In this document: one piece after another, positions 39,932 to 52,102 of the stretch
Layout: every line of letters starts with the position of its first letter
How positions within the stretch are numbered: position 1 is the stretch's first letter
NCBI RefSeq assembly: GCF_024029775.1
Contig: NZ_CP097122.1
Coordinates: 310,001-374,000, forward strand
DNA length: 64,000 nt
Direction of reading: 5' to 3'
From: Fructobacillus americanaquae
GTDB taxonomy: Bacteria > Bacillota > Bacilli > Lactobacillales > Lactobacillaceae
Notes under the pieces: generated by a model
What the model was told of the DNA's origin: nothing
What the model saw: the letters and a program-made list of their open reading frames with translations, nothing else
The model's database searches: none
Position numbers and translations under genes: made by a program

Positions 39932-40224
39932 TAGAGCACCTCCCACTGTGGCTGGTCAACTTGGTTCAAAGCCCGTTGACAAACAGTAATCGCCCGCGCC
40001 TTAATAACAGGATCTAAAGCCCCCTGGTCAACGACCTTAATGACAGCATTTTGAATATCATAGGCAGCAAACACCGCTTCAATTGTTGCTTGAATTTGAT
40101 CTCCAAATTGCTTGGCGACAGCTGAAACCAAGTCAAATTCCAGGCCATTCGTGCCTTGACTGACCACGATTTGAACATCCGAAGATTCGAGCGTTCCTGC
40201 TAAGGCAGTTTTCTTAATTTCCAT
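39931..40224 (-). CDS. citD: Citrate lyase gamma subunit (acyl carrier protein)
   Basis: 97 residues. The prosthetic-group serine is in AGTLESSDVQI at residue 14, the family position for the phosphoribosyl-dephospho-CoA attachment. The ATG at 40224 is chosen because it gives the normal family length and N-terminus (MEIKKTALAG) with AAAGGAC upstream; a longer frame up to 40311 lies inside citC. Overlaps citC by 11 nt and citE by 1 nt. Confidence 0.94.
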   Translation of the reverse strand: MEIKKTALAGTLESSDVQIVVSQGTNGLEFDLVSAVAKQFGDQIQATIEAVFAAYDIQNAVIKVVDQGALDPVIKARAITVCQRALNQVDQPQWEVL

Positions 40225-41275
40225 CGATTTTTTGTCCTTTCTTGATTCTTGCTTGTAAGTCGGTAAGGTGATTTTCGATAAAAGAGACACTCGACGCTGG
40301 TAACATATCAACTACCTCCTGAACCCGTCCAGCTGCAATCGCCTTTCTTACTGTTCGGGCACTAATGACTTGCTGACTACCTGCCGGTTCCAGCATTCTA
40401 GGCACCAGCACAAGTTGAACTTCGGGCGGCAAGACTTCTTCTAACGCCTGGTTATATTGACCCGTTGTTTGCGATAACGGTTCCGTGCCAACATAACGGC
40501 TTGTGATGGCCAGTGGTTTGGCAATTTGTTCTTTAAACAAAGCGGCATCGAGCCGAGTTTGATAAAAAACCCGCTGACTATCGTCTTTTAGAAAATAAGC
40601 CGGAAAAGATAGGCTGGAGACCATGTAGGGGCCACCGGTTGCCACCACAATATTAGTTAAATCGCTCGTCCCTTCTTGAACTAAGCCCAATCGTTCTTCA
40701 GTCGTGAACAATGATTGGTCTTCCTCAACCACAAAAACATACACGAAGTCATTCTGCTGCGCCGCTTTTTCGATCAAGTACCGGTGTCCCTTGGTAAACG
40801 GATTGGCATTCAAAACAACCGCTGCTACCCGCATTGCTGATGCTGGTTTTTTAGGTAGTGCTGCCCGAAAACTAGCGACATTGGGTAAGCCCTTTTCTAA
40901 AATCAGACCCGTATTCGTCTTCGCCAAAGTCGTAAAGCCAACATGGACAAAGCTTTGTTCATATTCCACTTTGGTGAAAACAAATAAATGAAAGATTCCT
41001 TCTTGCGCTAAAGTCGTTTCTAACATTGAAACCAAGCGATTAAACCGAGCTCCCTTGGAGGCACCAGCCGTCGAAACGGCCAAATATTTTAGCGTTTGCC
41101 CAGCAATCGAGCCAGTTCCAACCATTTGTTCTTGGCCATCATAGATTGCAAAGGTTTGATCGAGTCCAGCCAATTCTTGGTTGAAAAAGTTATCAAGGCC
41201 TTGACTGGTCAAAAACTGTTGCCAAGCTTTTTTCGTCGCTGGATTAGTCAAATAAATTTGTTGAATATTTTCCAC
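40214..41275 (-). CDS. citC: [Citrate (pro-3S)-lyase] ligase
   Basis: 353 residues. N-terminal GNAT-like domain (to about 145), then a nucleotidyltransferase domain with the HxGH-type motif NANPFTKGHRYLIE near 153 and the C-terminal ISARTVRKAIAAG near 310. It acetylates the CitD prosthetic group with ATP and acetate, activating citrate lyase. It starts 36 nt after citM and overlaps citD. Confidence 0.94.
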   Translation of the reverse strand: MENIQQIYLTNPATKKAWQQFLTSQGLDNFFNQELAGLDQTFAIYDGQEQMVGTGSIAGQTLKYLAVSTAGASKGARFNRLVSMLETTLAQEGIFHLFVFTKVEYEQSFVHVGFTTLAKTNTGLILEKGLPNVASFRAALPKKPASAMRVAAVVLNANPFTKGHRYLIEKAAQQNDFVYVFVVEEDQSLFTTEERLGLVQEGTSDLTNIVVATGGPYMVSSLSFPAYFLKDDSQRVFYQTRLDAALFKEQIAKPLAITSRYVGTEPLSQTTGQYNQALEEVLPPEVQLVLVPRMLEPAGSQQVISARTVRKAIAAGRVQEVVDMLPASSVSFIENHLTDLQARIKKGQKIDGN

Positions 41276-41311
41276 GATTGGCGCCCCACCTTTTTCCCTG
41301 AGCTTGCTACT

Positions 41312-42463
41312 TTAATGTTCCTGTTTGGCAAAAGCCAAGACCGCCTTTTCAACTGCTGCAACCACACCAGCATCAAAGACAGCGGGCACAATTTTTCCCG
41401 CCCTTGGCTGTTCGACCAAGTTAGCCAAGGCAGTCGCAACATGGAGCTGCAGTGCGATTGAAACTGATTTTAAATCAGTCGCCAAGAGGCCCTTAAACAG
41501 ACCTGGTAAGGCCAAAATATTGTTCACCTGGTTAGCCCATTGAGAAGACCCAGTCGCAACCACAGCAGCACCACCCGTCTTGGCTTCCTCTGGTAAAATT
41601 TCAGGTACCGGATTGGCTAGCGCCAAAATAATGGCCTTGTCGGCCATCCGGCGAACTTGGTTAGTCGACAAAAGATGTTCATCTGACAGACCAATAAAGA
41701 CGTCTTGTTGGTCGATAACATCATCTAAACTTTCCCCCTGGACTTGCTCAACTTGCTTTGCTAAATCGCGTTGAAAACGGTTATAAACTGAATTATCTGC
41801 TCGAATGACGCCATGAATGTCAACGAGCGTTTGCTTTTTTATTCCCGCAGCTAATAAGAGTTTGGCAGTCGCAACCCCGGCAGCACCGACACCATTGATC
41901 ACTATTTTCAATTCTGTCAAGGGCTTGCCCACGACCTTAGCAGCGTTAATCAAAGCCGCCAGCACAACAATGGCCGTGCCAGTCTGGTCATCATGGTAAA
42001 CAGGAATATCCAAAGCCTTTTGGAGTTGTTGCTCAATTTCAAAAACACGCGGTGCAGCAATGTCTTCCAAATGAATGCCTGCAAAGGATGGTGCCATTGC
42101 CTTAATTGTTGCCACAAATTCTTCGGTTGACACCTGGTTCAAAGCTAGCGGTATCGCATCAACACCAGCAAACTCTTTATAAATCAGTGCCTTCCCCTCA
42201 ACAATTGGTAACCCAGCCCCAGGGCCAATATTTCCCAGCCCCAAAACGGCCGATCCATCGGTAATGACCGGTACTAATTTACCCGAAATGGTGTACTTCT
42301 TTTGGTCCGCCGGATGACGCTCAATTTGTTTGGCTAAAGCTGCCACCCCTGGCGTGTAAGCCTTGGCTAAATCAGTCGCATTCTTAATGGAAAAGGTCCC
42401 TTGAATCGTCAGGGCTCCTTGGTGGTGCTCATGAAGTGCAAAGACTTCATTCATATCTACCAT
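41312..42463 (-). CDS. citM: Malic-enzyme family oxaloacetate decarboxylase (CitM)
   Basis: 383 residues. Malic enzyme signatures are YTPGVAALAK near 35, the catalytic lysine region VEGKALIYKEFAGVDAI near 88, HLEDIAAPRVFEIE near 132, HDDQTGTAI near 156, and the NAD(P)-binding INGVGAAGVATAKLLL near 187. In Weissella and Leuconostoc, the CitM in this operon position decarboxylates oxaloacetate from citrate lyase to pyruvate; no biotin-dependent OadAB is present here, in keeping with that role. The start has AGAGGAGG 5 nt upstream. First gene of the cit operon, divergent from citI. Confidence 0.92.
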   Translation of the reverse strand: MVDMNEVFALHEHHQGALTIQGTFSIKNATDLAKAYTPGVAALAKQIERHPADQKKYTISGKLVPVITDGSAVLGLGNIGPGAGLPIVEGKALIYKEFAGVDAIPLALNQVSTEEFVATIKAMAPSFAGIHLEDIAAPRVFEIEQQLQKALDIPVYHDDQTGTAIVVLAALINAAKVVGKPLTELKIVINGVGAAGVATAKLLLAAGIKKQTLVDIHGVIRADNSVYNRFQRDLAKQVEQVQGESLDDVIDQQDVFIGLSDEHLLSTNQVRRMADKAIILALANPVPEILPEEAKTGGAAVVATGSSQWANQVNNILALPGLFKGLLATDLKSVSIALQLHVATALANLVEQPRAGKIVPAVFDAGVVAAVEKAVLAFAKQEH

Positions 42464-42508
42464 ATTGGCCTCCTCTGTTTTTGAAGACTTGAATTAAATC
42501 CTAAATTC

Positions 42509-42537
42509 ATTTTAAATTGTGCATTGTCGATTGTAAA
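42509..42537 (-). promoter_or_regulatory. citM: Promoter of the citM operon
   Basis: TTTACA, 17-nt spacer, TAAAAT on the minus strand, 46 nt upstream of the citM start. Confidence 0.75.
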
Positions 42538-42538
42538 G

Positions 42539-42557
42539 AAAAATATTTAATATTTTT
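42539..42557. promoter_or_regulatory. Probable CitI operator at the citM promoter
   Basis: AAAAATATT-T-AATATTTTT is a perfect 9-bp inverted repeat with a one-base centre, abutting the citM -35 box. CitI is known to activate cit genes from AT-rich sites between citI and citM. Confidence 0.55.
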
Positions 42558-42586
42558 ACAAAAAAAATGTATAATTAATCTTTTTT

Positions 42587-42640
42587 CAATATTTTAAGTT
42601 TTTTGCCATCTTTGAATTTATCTTACTTTTAAAATATTTG
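42587..42640. promoter_or_regulatory. Second AT-rich inverted repeat near the citI promoter
   Basis: CAATATTTTAA (42587-42597) and TTAAAATATTTG (42629-42640) are inverted copies of each other apart from one extra T, and their half-sites resemble the operator at 42539. The right arm overlaps the citI -35 box (TTGACA, 42638-42643), so binding there could autoregulate citI. Confidence 0.4.
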
Positions 42641-42666
42641 ACACTTTGATTGTAAATATCTTGAAT
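42638..42666 (+). promoter_or_regulatory. citI: Candidate citI promoter
   Basis: TTGACA, 17-nt spacer, TTGAAT. The -10 is weak, as may be expected for an activated or autoregulated promoter. Confidence 0.45.
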
Positions 42667-42760
42667 TTTGTAGTAGAATCAATTTAATGATTTCTTGTTT
42701 AAGCCAAAAATCACGGATTAAATTAAAGAAAATCAATAATAGAAGGAAAAGGATGACAAT

Positions 42761-43708
42761 ATGTCCGCAACGGATCCAAATTTACTGGCGCAAATTTCTG
42801 AAGACTACTATTTAAACAAGTTGTCCTTTGGTGAAATTTCGACCAAGTACGACGTTTCCCGGTACCTCATTAACAAGTACCTGACAGAAGCCGTGAAAAC
42901 CGGTGTTGTGAAGATTGAAATTGCCACCTCTGCTAACCGTAATTCACAGTTAGAGCAAGTTTTTAAGGAAAAATTTCCAAACACAAATTGCTACATCATT
43001 CAAGATGACACCACGACCAGTGCCACTGAAGACCTGATTTCAAACTACGCAGCCAATCTAGTGGTCAAACACTTGGAAAATGGTCCCCATATCGTCGGTA
43101 TGACTTGGGGTGACACGATGTACTCACTGATTGATGCCATCACGTCCAATCCCTTAGATCAGATTAAGTTTACCCAATTCGTCGGGGAAAACATGAAGTA
43201 CAATTCCACGGCCGGTTCCGTACGCATCGTCGAACGGGCTGCCAAAAAGGTTGCCGGTGAATTCTTAACGCTCCCTGCTCCACTCTATTTAGCCGATGAT
43301 GCTGTTCGCGATGGTCTGTATGAGGCCGTTTCAATCAAACAGACCATCGACTTGGCCAAACAAATGGATACAGTTTTGACTGGCATGGGCACAATTGCTT
43401 CGCTTGAATCCATCGCCATTTGGAACCAAAACATCAACCGTCTCTTCCCCAACGTTAAGTTAGGCGAAGTTGCGGGCATGATTTACGGTCGTCCATACGA
43501 CATCAATGGCAATATCTTAAACGTTGGTTCCGACAAAGTCGTTGGTTTGGATATGAATTCTATCCTTGCAACACCAAAGCGAATTGGTGTGGTCCGTTCT
43601 AAGGCGAAATCAAAAGCAGCCCTTGGTGCCCTTCGTGGTGGCTTTTTAACTGACTTAGTGATGTCAGAATCGTTGGCATACCGAATTATCAACGAAGAAA
43701 CTGAATAA
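42761..43708 (+). CDS. citI: SorC/DeoR-type citrate-responsive regulator CitI
   Basis: 315 residues. An N-terminal helix-turn-helix (about 14-45, with LSFGEISTKYDVSRYLINKY) precedes a SorC-type ligand-binding domain with VGMTWGDTMYSLIDA near 110, TQFVGEN near 142, and MGTIAS near 212. Position divergent from citM and family both match CitI of Weissella paramesenteroides and Leuconostoc, which activates cit transcription when citrate is bound. Start ATG at 42761 with AAGGAAAAGG upstream. Has its own terminator. Confidence 0.92.
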   Translation: MSATDPNLLAQISEDYYLNKLSFGEISTKYDVSRYLINKYLTEAVKTGVVKIEIATSANRNSQLEQVFKEKFPNTNCYIIQDDTTTSATEDLISNYAANLVVKHLENGPHIVGMTWGDTMYSLIDAITSNPLDQIKFTQFVGENMKYNSTAGSVRIVERAAKKVAGEFLTLPAPLYLADDAVRDGLYEAVSIKQTIDLAKQMDTVLTGMGTIASLESIAIWNQNINRLFPNVKLGEVAGMIYGRPYDINGNILNVGSDKVVGLDMNSILATPKRIGVVRSKAKSKAALGALRGGFLTDLVMSESLAYRIINEETE

Positions 43709-45340: not shown

Positions 45341-46333
45341 TTACTGGTTAATAATTTGGTCAATTTGTGCCAATTCATCAGCAGAAAAGTCCAAGTTTTT
45401 CGTAAATTCAAGGTTGTCCATCAAATGATCAACGGATGATGTTCCAATCACCACGGAAGCAACCCGCTTGTCTTGGAGCAACCAGGCCAATGACATTTGG
45501 GTCAGCGTCTGTTGGCGACCTTGGGCTAATTCATTGAGCGCCCGCAACTTAGCGGCCAAAGCATCGCGACCATTTTCAAACAAGAAACCATTCGTCTTGT
45601 GGATTGGGAAGTCCTCTGGCACACCGTTTAGATAACGATCGGTTAGCAAGCCCTCTGCCAATGGCCCATATGCAAAGAGTCCGGCATGGTGCTGGTCCAA
45701 GGTGTCCAGCAAGCCTGAGTTCTTTTGCTCCTGATTTAACATGTTATAAGAAACTTGGTTTCCGATGAAGGGTGTCTTCAGTTCCTTGAAGATTTCAGCA
45801 ATGGCTTGCGTTTGTGCTGCGGTATAGTTGGACACCCCAACATACAGGGCCTTTCCCTGGCGAACCAAGGTATCTAAGGCCAGAGCAGTTTCTTCCAAGT
45901 TCGTATTTGGATCAAAACGATGAGCATAAAAAATGTCTACGTAATCCAAGTTCATCTTTTGCAGTGAGGTATCTAAGGCGTTAATCAACGTCTTTCGACC
46001 AGAAAATTCGCCCATTGGTCCAGGCCACATATGGTAACCAGCCTTCGTTGTAATCACCAATTCATTTCGGTAAGGCTTCAAATCTTGCTTGTAGACCTGG
46101 CCAAAAGTTTCTTCAGCGGTTCCGTTGTTGGGCCCGTAATTAAAGGCATTATCAAAAGAGAAAATCCCTTCATCAAAGGCTTTTAAAATGACTTTACGAG
46201 AATTTTCCAGTGGCTTGGTATCGCCAAGGTTACGCCACAGGCCAAAGGAAACGGCGGGGACAATCAAGCCAGAATCAGCGACTCGACGATAAGGCAACTT
46301 TTCATAACGATCTTCTGCTGCTTGGTAAACCAT
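45341..46333 (-). CDS. Aldo-keto reductase, YghZ/L-glyceraldehyde-3-phosphate reductase type
   Basis: 330 residues. The N-terminus EDRYEKLPYRRVADSGL..PAVSFGLW and NYGPNNGTAEETFGQ near 64-79 are typical of the AKR14 (YghZ) branch; VITTKAGYHMWPGP near 94 holds the catalytic lysine and FYAHRFDP near 135 the histidine. Members reduce aldehydes such as methylglyoxal with NADPH. It starts 2 nt after the SGNH gene behind GGAGGAA and closes that operon. Confidence 0.88.
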   Translation of the reverse strand: MVYQAAEDRYEKLPYRRVADSGLIVPAVSFGLWRNLGDTKPLENSRKVILKAFDEGIFSFDNAFNYGPNNGTAEETFGQVYKQDLKPYRNELVITTKAGYHMWPGPMGEFSGRKTLINALDTSLQKMNLDYVDIFYAHRFDPNTNLEETALALDTLVRQGKALYVGVSNYTAAQTQAIAEIFKELKTPFIGNQVSYNMLNQEQKNSGLLDTLDQHHAGLFAYGPLAEGLLTDRYLNGVPEDFPIHKTNGFLFENGRDALAAKLRALNELAQGRQQTLTQMSLAWLLQDKRVASVVIGTSSVDHLMDNLEFTKNLDFSADELAQIDQIINQ

Positions 46334-46335
46334 GT

Positions 46336-47262
46336 CTATTCCTCCAATACTGCTACTAACTGTTCTGCAATTTTCTGATGAGCTAACACATCAGGGTGAT
46401 AGGGTCGTGTCTGAATCCCCCACTGGTCCGCTCGAACAACGGTAAAGTTACTAAAGCGAGCAACTTCTGCCAAAACGATGTCCACAAAGGCACCATTCCA
46501 AGGGGTTAATAAATAAAAATTAGCACCATGGAACCGTTTTACTAATTCTAACAAATAGACGCGCAAACCAAAAGCGAATTCTTGGTCACTAGCGCCATAG
46601 TTAGCATCGTTTAATCCGTAGGCCACGATCACTCGGTCCGTTGCCACCCGTCGGCGGCTAATGCCTTCACCGACTTGCCAGAGGGCATCAATGGCCTTTG
46701 GTTCCTGGAATGGCGCTCGGGCGGTCAACCCTGTTCCGCCATAGGCGATTCGGTTTAACGGACGGTCAAAGTGCTCGGCCACCAAAGCCGGAAACGATAA
46801 CACCGGTTGGTGGTGGTCATGATTGGAACCGGACATTGATTCACCGGCAACAATTGAATCACCAACAAAAGTCAAATAAGGCCTTGTGACCGAACCATCC
46901 TTTGGCAAAACTGTCAAAAGATCTTCGTCACCCGACCAAACGAGATTGGTTAATACCAGGCCCGTCCGCCAAAAATCAACCTGCCCCGTCTCCCACTGGT
47001 CCAAAGTGAACTGGTAGTCGTGACCAGCCTGCAGATGAACGCTAACGTGGTCAGCAACGACCAAGAGGTCTTCTGATTTTTCACCGTCAATCGTCACCGT
47101 CCAAATCAGGTTAGGATAATGCTTTGCAAAAGTCAGTGTCAACGTCCCCTCATCTTGGGTTTTCACGAACAAATACGCACCATACTGTGAGGTCAATACC
47201 CCACCCTCTTCTAGCGCCGACCATTCCGGCGAGGCAAACTGTAATAAATCAGTTTTTATCAT
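46336..47262 (-). CDS. SGNH/GDSL-type hydrolase with atypical block V
   Basis: 308 residues, no signal peptide. A beta-rich N-terminal domain (about 1-125) precedes the SGNH domain: block I TFVGDSIVAGES near 132 (Ser), block II YGGTGLTA near 170 (Gly), block III AYGLNDANY near 213 (Asn), block V TRPYHPDVLAHQKIAE near 288 (His). In block V, Arg stands where the usual DxxHP has Asp, so the triad may be a dyad or use another acid. Substrate unknown, probably a carbohydrate or other acyl ester. Its ATG overlaps the prs-like stop by 4 nt. Confidence 0.82.
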   Translation of the reverse strand: MIKTDLLQFASPEWSALEEGGVLTSQYGAYLFVKTQDEGTLTLTFAKHYPNLIWTVTIDGEKSEDLLVVADHVSVHLQAGHDYQFTLDQWETGQVDFWRTGLVLTNLVWSGDEDLLTVLPKDGSVTRPYLTFVGDSIVAGESMSGSNHDHHQPVLSFPALVAEHFDRPLNRIAYGGTGLTARAPFQEPKAIDALWQVGEGISRRRVATDRVIVAYGLNDANYGASDQEFAFGLRVYLLELVKRFHGANFYLLTPWNGAFVDIVLAEVARFSNFTVVRADQWGIQTRPYHPDVLAHQKIAEQLVAVLEE

Positions 47263-48227
47263 TCGGCATCCTCACGTTGATCTGGGCTCAACAAGACCTT
47301 GGCCATCGATTTGTGGGCAATCACTTGACCAATTGCTTCAGCAAAGAGCTTAGCCACTGTAATGACCGTCAATTTATCAAACTGCTTTTCAGCTGGAATT
47401 GGTACTGTATCAGCGACAATTACCCGATCAATCACTGACTCCTGAAGTTTCTGAGAAGCATCTCCTGATAAGACCGCGTGGGTTGCCAAGGCATCAATTG
47501 TCTTTGCGCCCGCTTTTTGAACGGCAATGGCCGCCTTGACCGTTGCCTCACCAGTATCAATCATATCTGACAAAATGATGGCATGCTTACCAGCAACGTT
47601 TCCAGTTACCGCGGCCTTCACCCGCGGATCCCGGTCTTGATCGACAATCGCCCATTGAGCGTGCAAGACTTCAGCCAATCGCTGAACTAATTTCAAAGTC
47701 GACGAACCAGAGGCAACCACGACAACATCCGGCCCAACCAAGCCTTGATCCTCGTAAAATTTGGCTTGGACAGGCATAGCAATTAGATGGTCAACAGGAA
47801 TGTCGAAGAATCCCTGCACCTGACTGGTATGGAGGTCCATCGTCATGACGCGCTTAACACCTTGACTTTCCAACATATTGGCCATCAGGCGGGCAACAAT
47901 TGGTTCTCGCGACCGCGTCTTGCGGTCTGAGCGAGCGTAGCCAAGATAAGGAATAATCACGTTGATTGACTTGGCTGACGTTCGCTTTGCGGCATCGATA
48001 AAAATCATCAACTTAATAAAATTATCATTGACTGGTTCACTGATTGGTTGGACAACGTAAACGTCAATTCCGCGGACAGAATCCACGATTCTTTCATAAA
48101 TCTCGTTGTCAGCAAAAGTCTGAATCTCTACAGGTGCAATAGGCGTGTGCAATTGTTTCGCAATCGCCTCAGTTAAAGCTGGGTTGGTACCCAAATCAAA
48201 GAGACGGTATTTCGGATTGGCGGTCAT
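47259..48227 (-). CDS. prs: Ribose-phosphate pyrophosphokinase homologue with altered active-site motifs
   Basis: 322 residues aligning over the whole PRPP synthetase. ETQ-like FADNEIYERI near 38, YLGYARSDRKTRSREPI near 94, and MTMDLHTSQVQGFFDIPVDHL near 128 (catalytic His) are normal. Three conserved parts are not: the SPDxGG motif reads ASGSST (172-177), the flexible-loop KRRP reads QDRD (197-200), and the PRPP loop DDMIDTGG reads SDMIDTGE (220-227). It may be a divergent or regulatory paralogue rather than the main enzyme, which would then lie elsewhere. First gene of an operon with an SGNH hydrolase (4-nt overlap) and an AKR. Confidence 0.85.
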   Translation of the reverse strand: MTANPKYRLFDLGTNPALTEAIAKQLHTPIAPVEIQTFADNEIYERIVDSVRGIDVYVVQPISEPVNDNFIKLMIFIDAAKRTSAKSINVIIPYLGYARSDRKTRSREPIVARLMANMLESQGVKRVMTMDLHTSQVQGFFDIPVDHLIAMPVQAKFYEDQGLVGPDVVVVASGSSTLKLVQRLAEVLHAQWAIVDQDRDPRVKAAVTGNVAGKHAIILSDMIDTGEATVKAAIAVQKAGAKTIDALATHAVLSGDASQKLQESVIDRVIVADTVPIPAEKQFDKLTVITVAKLFAEAIGQVIAHKSMAKVLLSPDQREDAE

Positions 48228-48325: not shown

Positions 48326-51028
48326 TTATCGCAATTCGGGCATAAAATCAGCCGGCTTTAAATCGGCCATGCCAATCATTGGATTGGCCATGGCCTGTGT
48401 CAAAGTTGCCGCTGTCAACTCACTTTCGCCAACAACTTGGTCGGTAGCCAGTGACGCTTGAGCTGCTGATTTTTGCTGGGGGGAAGAAGTTAGTGATTGC
48501 TGGTCCATTTCGACAAGACTAGCAGTCACTGCTTGAGCCTGCGAGGCGAATTCCCGCTTAACTGCTACTTCCTTAACTCTTTGCTTGGCCGGCTGACCAC
48601 CACGAGTAGGAGATTGATGATGAGAACTAACCGGTTGACCGTCACCAGAAGTTAATCGTTCATCTAAATGAGACTCTTGGCTACCAGATTGTGCTCTTTG
48701 TTCAACACGGTCAACCGTTTCCCCCTGACGCTTCACTGTTCGCTGGTTATGGCGATCTGCCTGCAAGGCCTGGGTACCTTGGTGACCATTGTGCCGGTCG
48801 ATCAGCAACCCCTGTAAGAAGGTTTGCCGAACCGGTACTGGGTGAGTGGCAGCGTAATCGTATGCACTGTAATCGCCCACCATGACCAAGGACTCCTTGG
48901 CCCTGGTAATGGCAGTATAGACTAAGTTTTGATTCAGCATGATTTTAAATTGACCGGTTAAAACCAAAATGACCAACTTGAACTCATTTCCTTGCGCCTT
49001 ATGAATCGTTGTGGCATAAGCGAGGGTCAGCTGATTTAAAGTCTTACTGGTATACCAGACCTCTTGACCAGCAAAATCAACGACCAATGAATCAGCAGCT
49101 ACGCCAGGTTCCTTCTTATAGTGGATGGCAATTACCTGGCCCATGTCGCCATTATAAATGTCTCGTTCCGAATCATTTTCCAACTGAAGAACCTTGTCGC
49201 CCAGGCGAAAGATAGTCTCCCCCTGTTGTAAGGTCTTTTGACCAGGCTTAACAGGGTTAAAGAGGTCCTGGGCAATTTGATTTAAAGCCAAGACACCGGC
49301 CGACGTCTTATACATCGGTGCCAAAACTTGGACCTGATTGGCCGTAAACCCCTTCTTAACCGCCGCCTGCAATACCTGGCTAACAGCTCGTGGTACTTGG
49401 TCAGCTGTTGTTAAGAAAGTTGACCGGTCCAACTGATTTTCCTGAAAGTCCGGTGGTAAAATCCCAGCATTAATCGACTGGGCCAAAGTTGAAATACTGG
49501 AGCCCTTACCCTGACGGTAAATTCGTTCCAAGGCAATGTGTGGTACGGCCTGGCTTTGAATCAAATCATACAAGACGTTACCAGGACCAACGGAAGGCAA
49601 TTGATCTGCATCCCCAACTAAGACGAGATGCATGTCCTTTGGCAGAGCAGCAAAAAGGCTTTCTGCCAAGGAAATATCCAGCATGGAGGCCTCATCAATG
49701 ATTAAAAGGCCACCAGAAATCGGGTTATTGGCATCAAATTCGGCGTCATCGCCATCTGTAATACCGAGCAAGCGGTGAATGGTAGTCGCCTCATAACCCG
49801 TAATTTCGGTCATCCGCTTGGCCGCCCGACCTGTCGGCGAAGCCAGCCGGACACGATTTTGCTTAACCCAGTCTTTGTCGCGCCCTTGGCCTTTTGCCTG
49901 GTGGCGCACCAAAGCTTCCCAGGTCGCAACCAGCGTTTTCGTAACTGTTGTTTTACCCGTCCCCGGACCGCCTGTTAAAACAAAGACTTGGTTTGTCAAA
50001 GCTGCTTCAACCGCCCCCCGTTGGACCGCATCTAAGTTCAGGTTTTCTGGGACCACAAAGGTGGTATCAACCAAGTCCGGAGTCGTCAGAACGGCCGATT
50101 TAGCCTTTAATAGACTGTTGACCTTTGAGCTGACCAGGACTTCCGCTCCTTTTAAATCCGTTGGGCTGTAGTTACCGTCCTCATAGACCAACCGCTCTTG
50201 GCTCACCAAAGCCCCCAAGGCCTGGTCAATGGCCGCTTGCATGCCTGAGCCATTGTTCTGCAAGGTCGATTGGGCAGCAAAAAGCGCCTGGTCAACCGTT
50301 AGATAGGTGTGGCCAGCCGAGTAACAGGCATTTAAAATTCCAGCGTAGACACCGGCTTGAATCCTATCTGGATGATCGTCAGCAAAACCAGCCTGTTTAG
50401 CAATCGCGTCAACTTTTTTAAAGGGCAAACCATCAAATTCATATACTAAACGATAGGGGGTCTTCTGCAGAACTTCCTGTGCTTCCTCTCCATAATGATC
50501 AAAGAGCCGCCCCGCTACGTCTGCGGAAAGTCCAATTTGGTGACCAAGCAAAAATAGTTTCTCCAAGCCCAGGTTTTCCTGGATCTTTTCGGCCAAATCA
50601 GCGGCAACTTTTGGCTTAACGATGCCCTTTAAAACACTCGAATCGGCCAAAATTAAGTCAATTGCATTCTGACCCAAGTGGTCAACGATTTTTTCCGCAG
50701 TTTTCTTCCCCACGCCCGGAAAATCACCGGATGCAAAAAAGGCCACAAGTCCTTTCTCATCCGCTGGCATCTGATTTTCATAGCGAGCGGCTTGGAACTG
50801 TTGACCATATTTTGGATGCGTCACTAGTTGCCCATAAAAGGCATAGGTCGAACCGGGTTTAACCGAGGCGAAGGTTCCGGTAACAATGATTTCTTCTTCG
50901 TCCCAGTCCTCTAAATCAGTCTCGTCAACCGTAACAGACAAAATCTTAAAGTAGGAATCACTGGCCGAAAAAATCACATTTTGCAAGGTAGCCGTTATTT
51001 GATTGTCCTCTCGCATTGTCCTTACCAT
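48326..51028 (-). CDS. recD2: RecD2-type ATP-dependent DNA helicase with long C-terminal tail
   Basis: 900 residues. An N-terminal OB-like and helix-hairpin-helix region (FPGVGKKTAEKIVDHLG near 105) is followed by SF1B motor motifs: Walker A VLTGGPGTGKTTVTKT near 353, LLIIDEASMLD near 445, GDADQLPSVGPG near 477, and the C-terminal YTAITRAKESLVMVGD near 732. A tail of about 150 polar, Gln- and Ser-rich residues follows, ending in NPMIGMADLKPADFMPELR. RecD2 acts in DNA repair and replication restart. Start ATG at 51028, or ATG at 51016, which has AAGG just upstream. Follows the phosphatase gene by 82 nt. Confidence 0.93.
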   Translation of the reverse strand: MVRTMREDNQITATLQNVIFSASDSYFKILSVTVDETDLEDWDEEEIIVTGTFASVKPGSTYAFYGQLVTHPKYGQQFQAARYENQMPADEKGLVAFFASGDFPGVGKKTAEKIVDHLGQNAIDLILADSSVLKGIVKPKVAADLAEKIQENLGLEKLFLLGHQIGLSADVAGRLFDHYGEEAQEVLQKTPYRLVYEFDGLPFKKVDAIAKQAGFADDHPDRIQAGVYAGILNACYSAGHTYLTVDQALFAAQSTLQNNGSGMQAAIDQALGALVSQERLVYEDGNYSPTDLKGAEVLVSSKVNSLLKAKSAVLTTPDLVDTTFVVPENLNLDAVQRGAVEAALTNQVFVLTGGPGTGKTTVTKTLVATWEALVRHQAKGQGRDKDWVKQNRVRLASPTGRAAKRMTEITGYEATTIHRLLGITDGDDAEFDANNPISGGLLIIDEASMLDISLAESLFAALPKDMHLVLVGDADQLPSVGPGNVLYDLIQSQAVPHIALERIYRQGKGSSISTLAQSINAGILPPDFQENQLDRSTFLTTADQVPRAVSQVLQAAVKKGFTANQVQVLAPMYKTSAGVLALNQIAQDLFNPVKPGQKTLQQGETIFRLGDKVLQLENDSERDIYNGDMGQVIAIHYKKEPGVAADSLVVDFAGQEVWYTSKTLNQLTLAYATTIHKAQGNEFKLVILVLTGQFKIMLNQNLVYTAITRAKESLVMVGDYSAYDYAATHPVPVRQTFLQGLLIDRHNGHQGTQALQADRHNQRTVKRQGETVDRVEQRAQSGSQESHLDERLTSGDGQPVSSHHQSPTRGGQPAKQRVKEVAVKREFASQAQAVTASLVEMDQQSLTSSPQQKSAAQASLATDQVVGESELTAATLTQAMANPMIGMADLKPADFMPELR

Positions 51029-51110: not shown

Positions 51111-51764
51111 TTAAATAGTTGTACCGGCATCCTGGTCTTTATGCAAATAACTGGTTTCATTCCATTTTACCAAGTCAAAATCTTGGCCGTTCTTTGTTTC
51201 AATAATTGTCGTCGACGTATTCGACAGGCCACCCAAAGACCTAATTTGGTCACGAGGGATTCCCAGCAAGCTTGTCACCCCAAAAGTTAAAATCAGCCCA
51301 TGGGCAACCACTAAAACGGCATCTTCTGGATGGTTGGCGATAATCTCTTGCATCATCTTTTGAAAACGAGTAACCGCCTTTGTATAGCCCTCACCGTTAA
51401 AGCCCTGGCCTTCAAAACTCTCCAAATGGTTCTTATAAACATCATAAGCTTCCGGATAGTTTTTCTGCACGTCCGCCATGGCCTGGCCTTCCCATTCGCC
51501 CAAGCCAACCTCAACGATGTTGGAATGCAAAGAAAGCCGTGGCTCGTTTGGCAAATCAGCCTGAATCCGTTCGGCAGTAACCTTCGCTCTTGGTAATGGT
51601 GAAGCGTAAACCCGGTCGATGTGCTTGTCTTTTAAGAAACCGGCAACCTTCTTCATATCCTCATAAGAACCAGGCAAAAGTGGAGAATCCCCCTGTGCCC
51701 CTTGAAAGCGCCGTTCCAAATTCCATTCAGTTTGCCCGTGACGGACGAAATAAAAAGTTGTCAT
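51111..51764 (-). CDS. Histidine phosphatase family protein (phosphoglycerate-mutase-like)
   Basis: 217 residues. FYFVRHGQTEWN with the phospho-accepting His at residue 9, the second Arg near 59 (YASPLPRAKVTAE), Glu in VEVGLGEWEG near 87, and the second His in VVAHGLIL near 155. Such proteins are phosphatases with varied substrates; dPGM activity is less likely from the sequence. Its start overlaps the DUF1831 stop by 4 nt, so the two are coupled. Confidence 0.87.
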   Translation of the reverse strand: MTTFYFVRHGQTEWNLERRFQGAQGDSPLLPGSYEDMKKVAGFLKDKHIDRVYASPLPRAKVTAERIQADLPNEPRLSLHSNIVEVGLGEWEGQAMADVQKNYPEAYDVYKNHLESFEGQGFNGEGYTKAVTRFQKMMQEIIANHPEDAVLVVAHGLILTFGVTSLLGIPRDQIRSLGGLSNTSTTIIETKNGQDFDLVKWNETSYLHKDQDAGTTI

Positions 51765-52102
51765 GATTGCTTTTTTAATACCTGCCGGTCTTCTAATTCT
51801 TGTAAGTAGTAGCGATAAATCTTCACCACTTCGTCTTTATCTGTGCGAGCAAAGATGTCGACTGGGGCGGCAGCACCGGCTGACACCACAACCATCTTAA
51901 AGCCGGTCAAATCTTGATTAACGGTCACCTTCAGTCTAATTGATTGATCGACCGGAAGGTCTGGCTGCAATGGCCGCTTTAAAACAAATGCACCAGCATT
52001 GTTTGTCAAAAAGCCAAGATCCAATAAGGCAAATTTTTTAATTTGCGGATTAATTTCATATGTGCCATCGTGGGGGATGGTCACAGACTTTGCAAAAGCC
52101 AT
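51761..52102 (-). CDS. DUF1831 family protein
   Basis: 113 residues. The pattern IKKFALLDLGFLTNNAGAF, LKVTVNQDLTGFKM and the C-terminal VVKIYRYYLQELEDRQVL fit PF08866 (DUF1831), a small lactobacillal family often beside cysteine desulfurase, recD2 and phosphatase genes. The function is not established. Start ATG behind AAAGGAG. First gene of a run leading to recD2. Confidence 0.8.
   Translation of the reverse strand: MAFAKSVTIPHDGTYEINPQIKKFALLDLGFLTNNAGAFVLKRPLQPDLPVDQSIRLKVTVNQDLTGFKMVVVSAGAAAPVDIFARTDKDEVVKIYRYYLQELEDRQVLKKQS

Follow-up and report, generated by a model that had tools for sequence, protein, structure and literature searches.

Introduction

The closest described counterparts of the gene studied here are inactive paralogues of phosphoribosyl pyrophosphate (PRPP) synthetase (Prs or PRPS) from eukaryotes, and it is with these that we compare prs2, a degenerate Prs paralogue in a 64,000-nucleotide stretch of the Fructobacillus americanaquae genome (assembly GCF_024029775.1, contig NZ_CP097122.1, positions 310,001 to 374,000). 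This whole stretch is called the window below, and positions are counted from its first letter. We put at roughly 60% the probability that the product of prs2, Prs2, is a PRPP-synthetase pseudoenzyme that acts as a regulatory subunit of Prs.

Mammalian PRPSAP1 (PAP39) and PRPSAP2 (PAP41) are, like Prs2, class I Prs paralogues found beside an active copy. They share with it the loss of the equivalents of D171, K194, and N200 (PMC12238573), and their structures (PDB 2c4k and 2ji4) are sequence matches to Prs2. Reasoning from the flag and the loops similar to ours has been applied to PRPSAPs, with human PRPSAP2 showing a comparable loss of loop residues (PMC12238573). The resemblance has its bounds, as the PRPSAP catalytic loop carries NHR insertions whereas that of Prs2 is shortened, and T225 is lost in PRPSAP2 but kept in Prs2. 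PRPSAPs are known to associate with Prs, as is proposed here for Prs2, and the bacterial copies group with Lactobacillales Prs and so have a separate origin. Prs2 consequently falls outside the PRPSAP family proper, which is opisthokont, carries the NHR insertion, and descends from opisthokont PRPS1. It does show two features of a PRPS-associated pseudoenzyme of the PRPSAP-like functional kind, namely an active-looking canonical Prs in the same genome and loss of catalytic residues in a gene that is under selection. Yeast Prs1 and Prs5 likewise make no PRPP alone and are needed in Prs1/Prs3, Prs2/Prs5, or Prs4/Prs5 units of yeast proteins (PMC9221600); they differ in being disabled by long NHR insertions, of which Prs2 has none, and in being tied to cell wall integrity signaling.

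For bacteria, the published picture is a different one. A preprint of June 2026 reports 37 PRPS pseudoenzyme events, all of them eukaryotic and contrasted with bacteria, and describes catalytic residues as retained across the major prokaryotic classes (PMC13252144); the terms lactobac-, Firmicutes, Bacillota, and streptococc- do not appear in its main text. A paper of 2025 describes bacteria as typically expressing a single PRPS (PMC12238573). In the literature covered, which omits most subscription journals and preprints, we found no report on a Prs pseudoenzyme from bacteria, and this is not proof that none exists.

Catalytic residues lost and retained in Prs2

47259..48227, minus strand: prs2, degenerate PRPP-synthetase paralogue, 322 aa, Pfam PF13793 and PF14572

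The motifs of Prs2 were compared by alignment to the same genome's own canonical Prs (329 aa), to which it is 44% identical. The pyrophosphate (PP) loop region changes from VVSPDHGGMTRAR in the canonical protein to VVASGSSTLKLVQ in Prs2, the catalytic loop from IDKRRP to VDQDRD, and the ribose 5-phosphate (R5P) loop from VDDMIDTAGT to LSDMIDTGEA, while the catalytic His is retained, in MDLHTSQVQGFFD. The alignment thereby confirms what the first-pass annotation had read from the window, that SPDxGG, KRRP, and the first Asp of DDMIDTGG are replaced in a protein that keeps its catalytic His and its length. That list is correct as stated but incomplete, as N200, G227, and T228 have been lost as well. 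The replacement of KRRP by QDRD is also less thorough than it was taken to be: K194 is gone, but the third letter of QDRD aligns with the second catalytic Arg (R196 of Escherichia coli), and Prs2 may therefore have lost K194 and retained R196.

Residue roles were taken from studies of the E. coli (PMC9232217) and human (PMC4363470, PMC10227994) enzymes, and the division into FLAG and RF, PP, CF, and R5P loops from PMC12238573; E. coli numbering is used. Among the 11 cis-acting residues scored (D170, G172, G173, K194, R196, N200, D220, D221, T225, G227, and T228), Prs2 keeps three, R196, D221, and T225. In the catalytic loop, K194 is replaced by Q and N200 by V, and one column is a gap. Only D221 and T225 remain of the eight scored residues of the pyrophosphate and R5P loops, with D170, G172, G173, D220, G227, and T228 all lost. 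HMMER alignments to E. coli chains place the PP-loop gap elsewhere than MAFFT does, and the MAFFT placement is used here. In contrast, all five ATP/adenine residues (F35, D37, E39, R99, and H131) are present. Of the attributes of a class I PRPP synthetase, Prs2 therefore has the fold and homology and the ATP/adenine residues, but neither an intact K194/R196 loop nor intact pyrophosphate and R5P loops. The residue pattern makes its catalytic death a well-supported prediction.

An AlphaFold2 model of Prs2, built from 22 sequences, has a mean pLDDT of 84.9, with the regulatory loop at residues 98 to 110 uncertain. Its best PDB match is Bacillus subtilis Prs 1dkr (Foldseek TMq of 0.86 to 1dkr_A), and its matches to the Prs structures of B. 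subtilis and E. coli span about 305 to 312 columns. The Prs fold is thus predicted to be intact.

A canonical Prs in the same genome and a degenerate copy across the order

The source genome, a single contig of 1.41 Mb, holds two Prs genes. The first-pass annotation had proposed looking for a canonical prs elsewhere and had named its absence, combined with normal PRPP synthesis by Prs2, as grounds for abandoning the idea. Such a gene is present (L001:877-1866, 329 aa), with SPDHGG, KRRP, and DDMIDTAGT all intact, and is also located with full motifs at G000:C1:714711-715061; prs2 is accordingly ruled out as the sole prs of the genome.

The pairing is not peculiar to this species. A protein search recovered at least one Prs homologue in 395 of 395 Lactobacillales genomes, and a hand count, in which motifs were not all checked, gave two homologues in 69 of 73 Lactobacillaceae genomes, that of F. 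americanaquae included. Both copies were retrieved and typed in 29 Lactobacillales genomes, one per genus. Canonical prs occurs in all 29, and 25 carry an additional degenerate copy in which the DKRR catalytic loop is missing. These 25 comprise 17 of the 20 Lactobacillaceae genomes and 8 of the 9 from other families, a spread that rules out an oddity of Fructobacillus alone. Some of the sampled genomes with a degenerate copy presumably belong to Streptococcus and Enterococcus. A nucleotide-level pattern of the canonical loop matched 311 of the 395 genomes; it is blind to GTG valine codons and to the KRRS loop of one genome (L077, family f4), and it misses the known canonical copy of F. americanaquae, so that it was not used as evidence of loss. 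Outside the Lactobacillales, 38 of 183 genomes of Bacilli have two or three Prs homologues by hand count, many of them large genomes of one family (f12), and pseudoenzymes among these extra homologues are possible.

Removal of near-identical sequences reduced 146 Prs proteins to 109, of which 54 are degenerate, 47 canonical, and 8 actinobacterial, the last being excluded from the residue counts. All 11 cis residues are present in 47 of 47 canonical proteins, compared with 3 to 7 in the 54 degenerate ones. Retention among the latter is very uneven, lowest for G172 (1 protein), G227 and N200 (4 each), R196 (6), and K194 and T228 (11 each), intermediate for G173 (27) and D170 (38), and high for D220 (50), T225 (51), and D221 (54). 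The residues that act in trans or bind nucleotide behave otherwise: the FLAG residues F35, D37, and E39 are retained in every degenerate protein (162 of 162 positions), the allosteric-site residues R49, R105, Q136, and D144 at 213 of 216 positions, and the other ATP residues R96, D98, R99, and H131 at 210 of 216. Columns that are invariant in canonical proteins are kept at a rate of 0.51 within the PP, CF, and R5P loops (26 columns) versus 0.81 elsewhere (96 columns), with a permutation P of 5e-5; the test treats columns as independent although the sequences are related, and it measures the pattern rather than a number of events. The altered loops vary between genera and do not converge on a new conserved motif. 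Filament contact residues vary within canonical proteins too, and no conclusion is drawn from them.

Erosion is graded within the group to which the window belongs. Leuconostoc copies mostly retain PDH and DDIIDTG, whereas the five Fructobacillus copies all have ASG, and in four of them the first Asp has become S or A.

Selection and ancestry of prs2

Strong purifying selection acts on prs2. Against four other Fructobacillus genomes, the ratio of nonsynonymous to synonymous substitution rates (dN/dS) is 0.033 to 0.041, with dS at saturation for two of these comparisons, and the reading frame is intact. The SGNH hydrolase gene that follows prs2 gives higher values (0.066 to 0.098), and the aldo-keto reductase (AKR) gene after it gives lower ones (0.015 to 0.025) in the usable comparisons, those with Fructobacillus ficulneus being dropped for undetermined bases and a broken frame. 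From the dN/dS values and the fold-intact model, it follows that Prs2 is selected as a Prs fold and is not decaying. The presence of the same class of protein in 25 of 29 sampled genomes, together with this selection, indicates that the degenerate Prs is more than a chance occurrence.

The nearest relatives of Prs2 are the Prs2 proteins of other Lactobacillales; among named relatives, Fructobacillus tropaeoli (95% identity at the protein level) and Fructobacillus sp. EFB-N1 (94%) come closest. In a tree of 89 of the 109 proteins that includes Actinomycetota, two changes are needed to account for the degenerate copies, and the canonical proteins make up a single group (support 86). In a tree of 84 proteins without Actinomycetota, all 51 degenerate rows fall to the same side of one branch (SH-aLRT 77), although some rows are on long branches. 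Many degenerate copies have longer terminal branches than canonical copies do.

Gene neighborhood

The genes around prs2, from those upstream to those downstream, are as follows.

48326-51028: recD2, upstream of prs2, name assigned by eye from the sequence
46336..47262, minus strand: SGNH/GDSL hydrolase gene, Pfam PF13472 (33.6 bits, cut-off 32.9)
45341..46333, minus strand: AKR gene, L-glyceraldehyde-3-phosphate-reductase-like subfamily, Pfam PF00248
45306..45328, minus strand: possible intrinsic terminator directly past the AKR gene, 10-pair stem with 3 G-C pairs, T run

As the first-pass annotation had reported, the SGNH hydrolase gene overlaps prs2, by 4 nt (47259-47262), and the AKR gene starts 2 nt beyond the SGNH stop. 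The terminator candidate is weak when taken alone, such sites being found 2 times versus 3.9 in shuffled sequence. No signal peptide was seen on the SGNH hydrolase by eye. Its GDS, Asn, and His blocks are present in 18 of 18 relatives, and the block II Gly motif is GGTG in 16 and GGSG in 2. The AKR has its best NCBIfam match in NF007388 (376.5 bits, under the cut-off of 448), and most of 30 cluster members preserve its tetrad regions. On these motifs, both enzymes of the operon are apparently intact.

The order recD2-prs2-SGNH-AKR is found in 17 of 17 loci (L033 to L049) from Leuconostoc, Fructobacillus, Convivina, and two unclassified relatives, with the 4-nt overlap in 15 and a spacing of 2 nt in 2. 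Conservation of the three-gene order, which the first-pass annotation had listed among its checks, holds within this group but not beyond it, where the degenerate Prs has other surroundings. In four Furfurilactobacillus loci, prs2 is followed by the AKR gene with no SGNH gene between them. Near the degenerate copies of 17 sampled Lactobacillaceae loci, recD2 occurs in 10, AKR in 6, MnmA in 5, and SGNH in 1, a locus with the Leuconostoc arrangement (L092). The SGNH coupling is confined to Leuconostoc, Fructobacillus, and Convivina, and only the AKR link reaches further. None of these four genes lies near canonical prs in 20 sampled Lactobacillaceae loci. Canonical prs instead has glmU nearby in 17 of 20 Lactobacillaceae loci and 8 of 9 others, versus 0 of 25 beside degenerate copies.

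A small conserved gene at 51761-52102, upstream of recD2 and taken by us to be DUF1831-like, has homologues beside prs2 and a cysteine desulfurase gene in 2 of 8 prs2 loci of other families (L130 and L134). Together with MnmA near prs2 in five Lactobacillaceae loci, this suggests an old tRNA-thiolation neighborhood around prs2, the MnmA and desulfurase names being assigned by eye. The recD2 gene of F. ficulneus JCM 12225 is broken into two open reading frames (L034:3272-5913), and its AKR gene has a disturbed frame close to undetermined bases (L034:7886-8921), probably through an assembly fault. Leuconostoc loci (L041 to L049 and L092) carry, between rsmF and the small conserved gene, a gene of about 370 to 400 aa that looks by eye like a BMP-family lipoprotein and is absent from the Fructobacillus loci. 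Elsewhere in the window, positions 40214-43708 have the look of a citrate/malate cluster, with a citrate lyase ligase-like gene (40214-41275) and a malic enzyme-like gene (41312-42463), both named by eye, beside a divergent regulator (42761-43708) with a Pfam Sugar-bind match.

Discussion

When the residue pattern is placed in the context of how Prs works, a role for Prs2 can be proposed. The FLAG of Prs works in trans and the catalytic loops in cis (PMC12238573, PMC9232217). Prs2 would fold like Prs and, with the FLAG motif F-x-D-x-E, His131, Arg99, and the ADP allosteric-site residues kept, would bind adenine nucleotides, and with its own pyrophosphate, catalytic, and ribose-phosphate loops lost it would make no PRPP. 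A subunit with the flag and allosteric site but no working loops would thus yield no PRPP and yet be able to complete a neighbor's ATP site and report ADP. It may be envisaged that Prs2 joins canonical Prs in mixed hexamers, that its FLAG completes the ATP site of the adjacent catalytic subunit, and that the ADP or nucleotide sensing it carries sets the activity or the feedback inhibition of the complex. The partnership with Prs, the mixed hexamers, and the direction of regulation are what we infer here, with more confidence in the loss of activity than in the partnership. A regulatory subunit is favored because Prs active sites are shared, with the flag coming from one subunit and the catalytic loops from the other, and because PRPSAPs and yeast Prs1 and Prs5 provide precedents.

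Several observations weigh against this proposal. Retention of the FLAG and H131 would be equally expected if Prs2 merely binds ATP or ADP as a homo-oligomer. Some catalytic residues persist, K194 in 11, D170 in 38, and D220 in 50 of the 54 degenerate proteins, with R196 kept by Prs2 of the window, and a weak or altered activity is therefore possible in degenerate members outside Fructobacillus. The surroundings of prs2 are unrelated in several genera, and a single origin of the degenerate clade, although possible, is weakly supported by the trees.

The first-pass annotation had offered two alternatives, a regulatory subunit resembling the PRPSAPs or an enzyme with a new sugar-phosphate substrate processed jointly with the products of the other two genes. 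The former fits best, given that nucleotide residues are kept and catalytic loops lost in a pattern like that of PRPSAP2. The latter, an active diphosphokinase or related transferase that shares a pathway with the SGNH hydrolase and the AKR, is a distinctly unlikely reading. The retained nucleotide site, the His that is a Mg ligand, and the near-universal D221, T225, and D220 would suit it, and the intact catalytic blocks of the SGNH hydrolase and AKR indicate that the operon does encode enzymes. It is weakened because the losses go beyond the sugar site to take in the catalytic Lys and the pyrophosphate loop, with G172 and G227 nearly gone from the degenerate set, and because the three-gene order is clade restricted while the degenerate Prs occurs order-wide in other surroundings. 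The altered loops are genus specific and share no new conserved motif, and most prs2 genes outside the Leuconostoc-Fructobacillus-Convivina clade have no SGNH partner, for which reason the three-gene pathway was set aside as the main explanation. Rather unlikely too, if less so, is a nucleotide-binding pseudoenzyme whose partner is something other than the canonical Prs (Prs1), be it the SGNH hydrolase, the AKR, or a component of the recD2/MnmA/cysteine desulfurase neighborhood. The invariant prs2-SGNH-AKR order in 17 loci speaks for such a partner, as do the frequencies of AKR and recD2 near degenerate but not canonical copies and the desulfurase and presumed DUF1831-like neighbors in other families; nonetheless, no neighbor is universal, the surroundings shift while the residue pattern holds, and the trans-acting FLAG is kept in all 54 proteins, as interaction with Prs itself would demand.

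Genuine but weak PRPP-synthetase activity of Prs2 seems improbable. NCBIfam NF002320, named ribose-phosphate diphosphokinase, scores it above cut-off (327.8 bits against 297), and R196, D221, and T225 are kept; eight other cis residues are nevertheless lost, including K194, and in human PRS1 neither K194A nor R196A leaves detectable activity, each equivalent being indispensable (PMC4363470). Least credible of all is a functionless, decaying duplicate. Its faster evolution and the long end branches could be read in that way, but the selection test contradicts it, the frame is intact, and the degenerate copy has been kept in most genera, as has a second Prs homologue in nearly all Lactobacillaceae genomes counted; the dN/dS of 0.03 to 0.04 rules out a relic gene.

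Returning to the regulatory pseudoenzyme, a wider version, which we rate at a little under even odds, is that an inactive Prs paralogue arose once or a few times in Lactobacillales, has been kept in most lineages (relatives of Streptococcus and Enterococcus among them), and forms mixed hexamers with canonical Prs, where it lends its adenine-binding flag to the adjoining active site and tunes PRPP production. It would then be a convergent counterpart of PRPSAPs in organisms taken to have only one PRPS. Prs2 shares fold, length, and nucleotide-binding and allosteric residues with the canonical Lactobacillales Prs, from which it differs in lacking the full set of 11 cis residues and the usual adjacency to glmU. 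Public annotation already contains part of the degenerate class: NF002686 (PRK02458), also named ribose-phosphate diphosphokinase, describes the second, degenerate Prs of other Lactobacillales families. Its cut-off of 506 is reached by L130:5075-6031 (623 bits) and L134:5011-5994 (508 bits), both without the catalytic loop, while the copies of the window (300 bits) and of Leuconostoc (338 bits) fall below it. The equivalog name is probably an over-naming, the activity it implies being unsupported by the residues. UniProt reportedly remarks that second Prs copies (KPRS2) are without conserved residues.

PRPP is the entry to nucleotides, NAD, histidine, and tryptophan, and control of PRPS through inactive paralogues has so far been described from eukaryotes; a widespread bacterial PRPS pseudoenzyme would, if true, be new. 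As annotation models name prs2-type genes ribose-phosphate diphosphokinase, metabolic models of lactic acid bacteria may credit these organisms with an enzyme they do not have. If our proposal is correct, the pseudo-PRPS of lactobacilli, leuconostocs, and other Lactobacillales would make this mode of PRPS regulation accessible in a genetically simple system.

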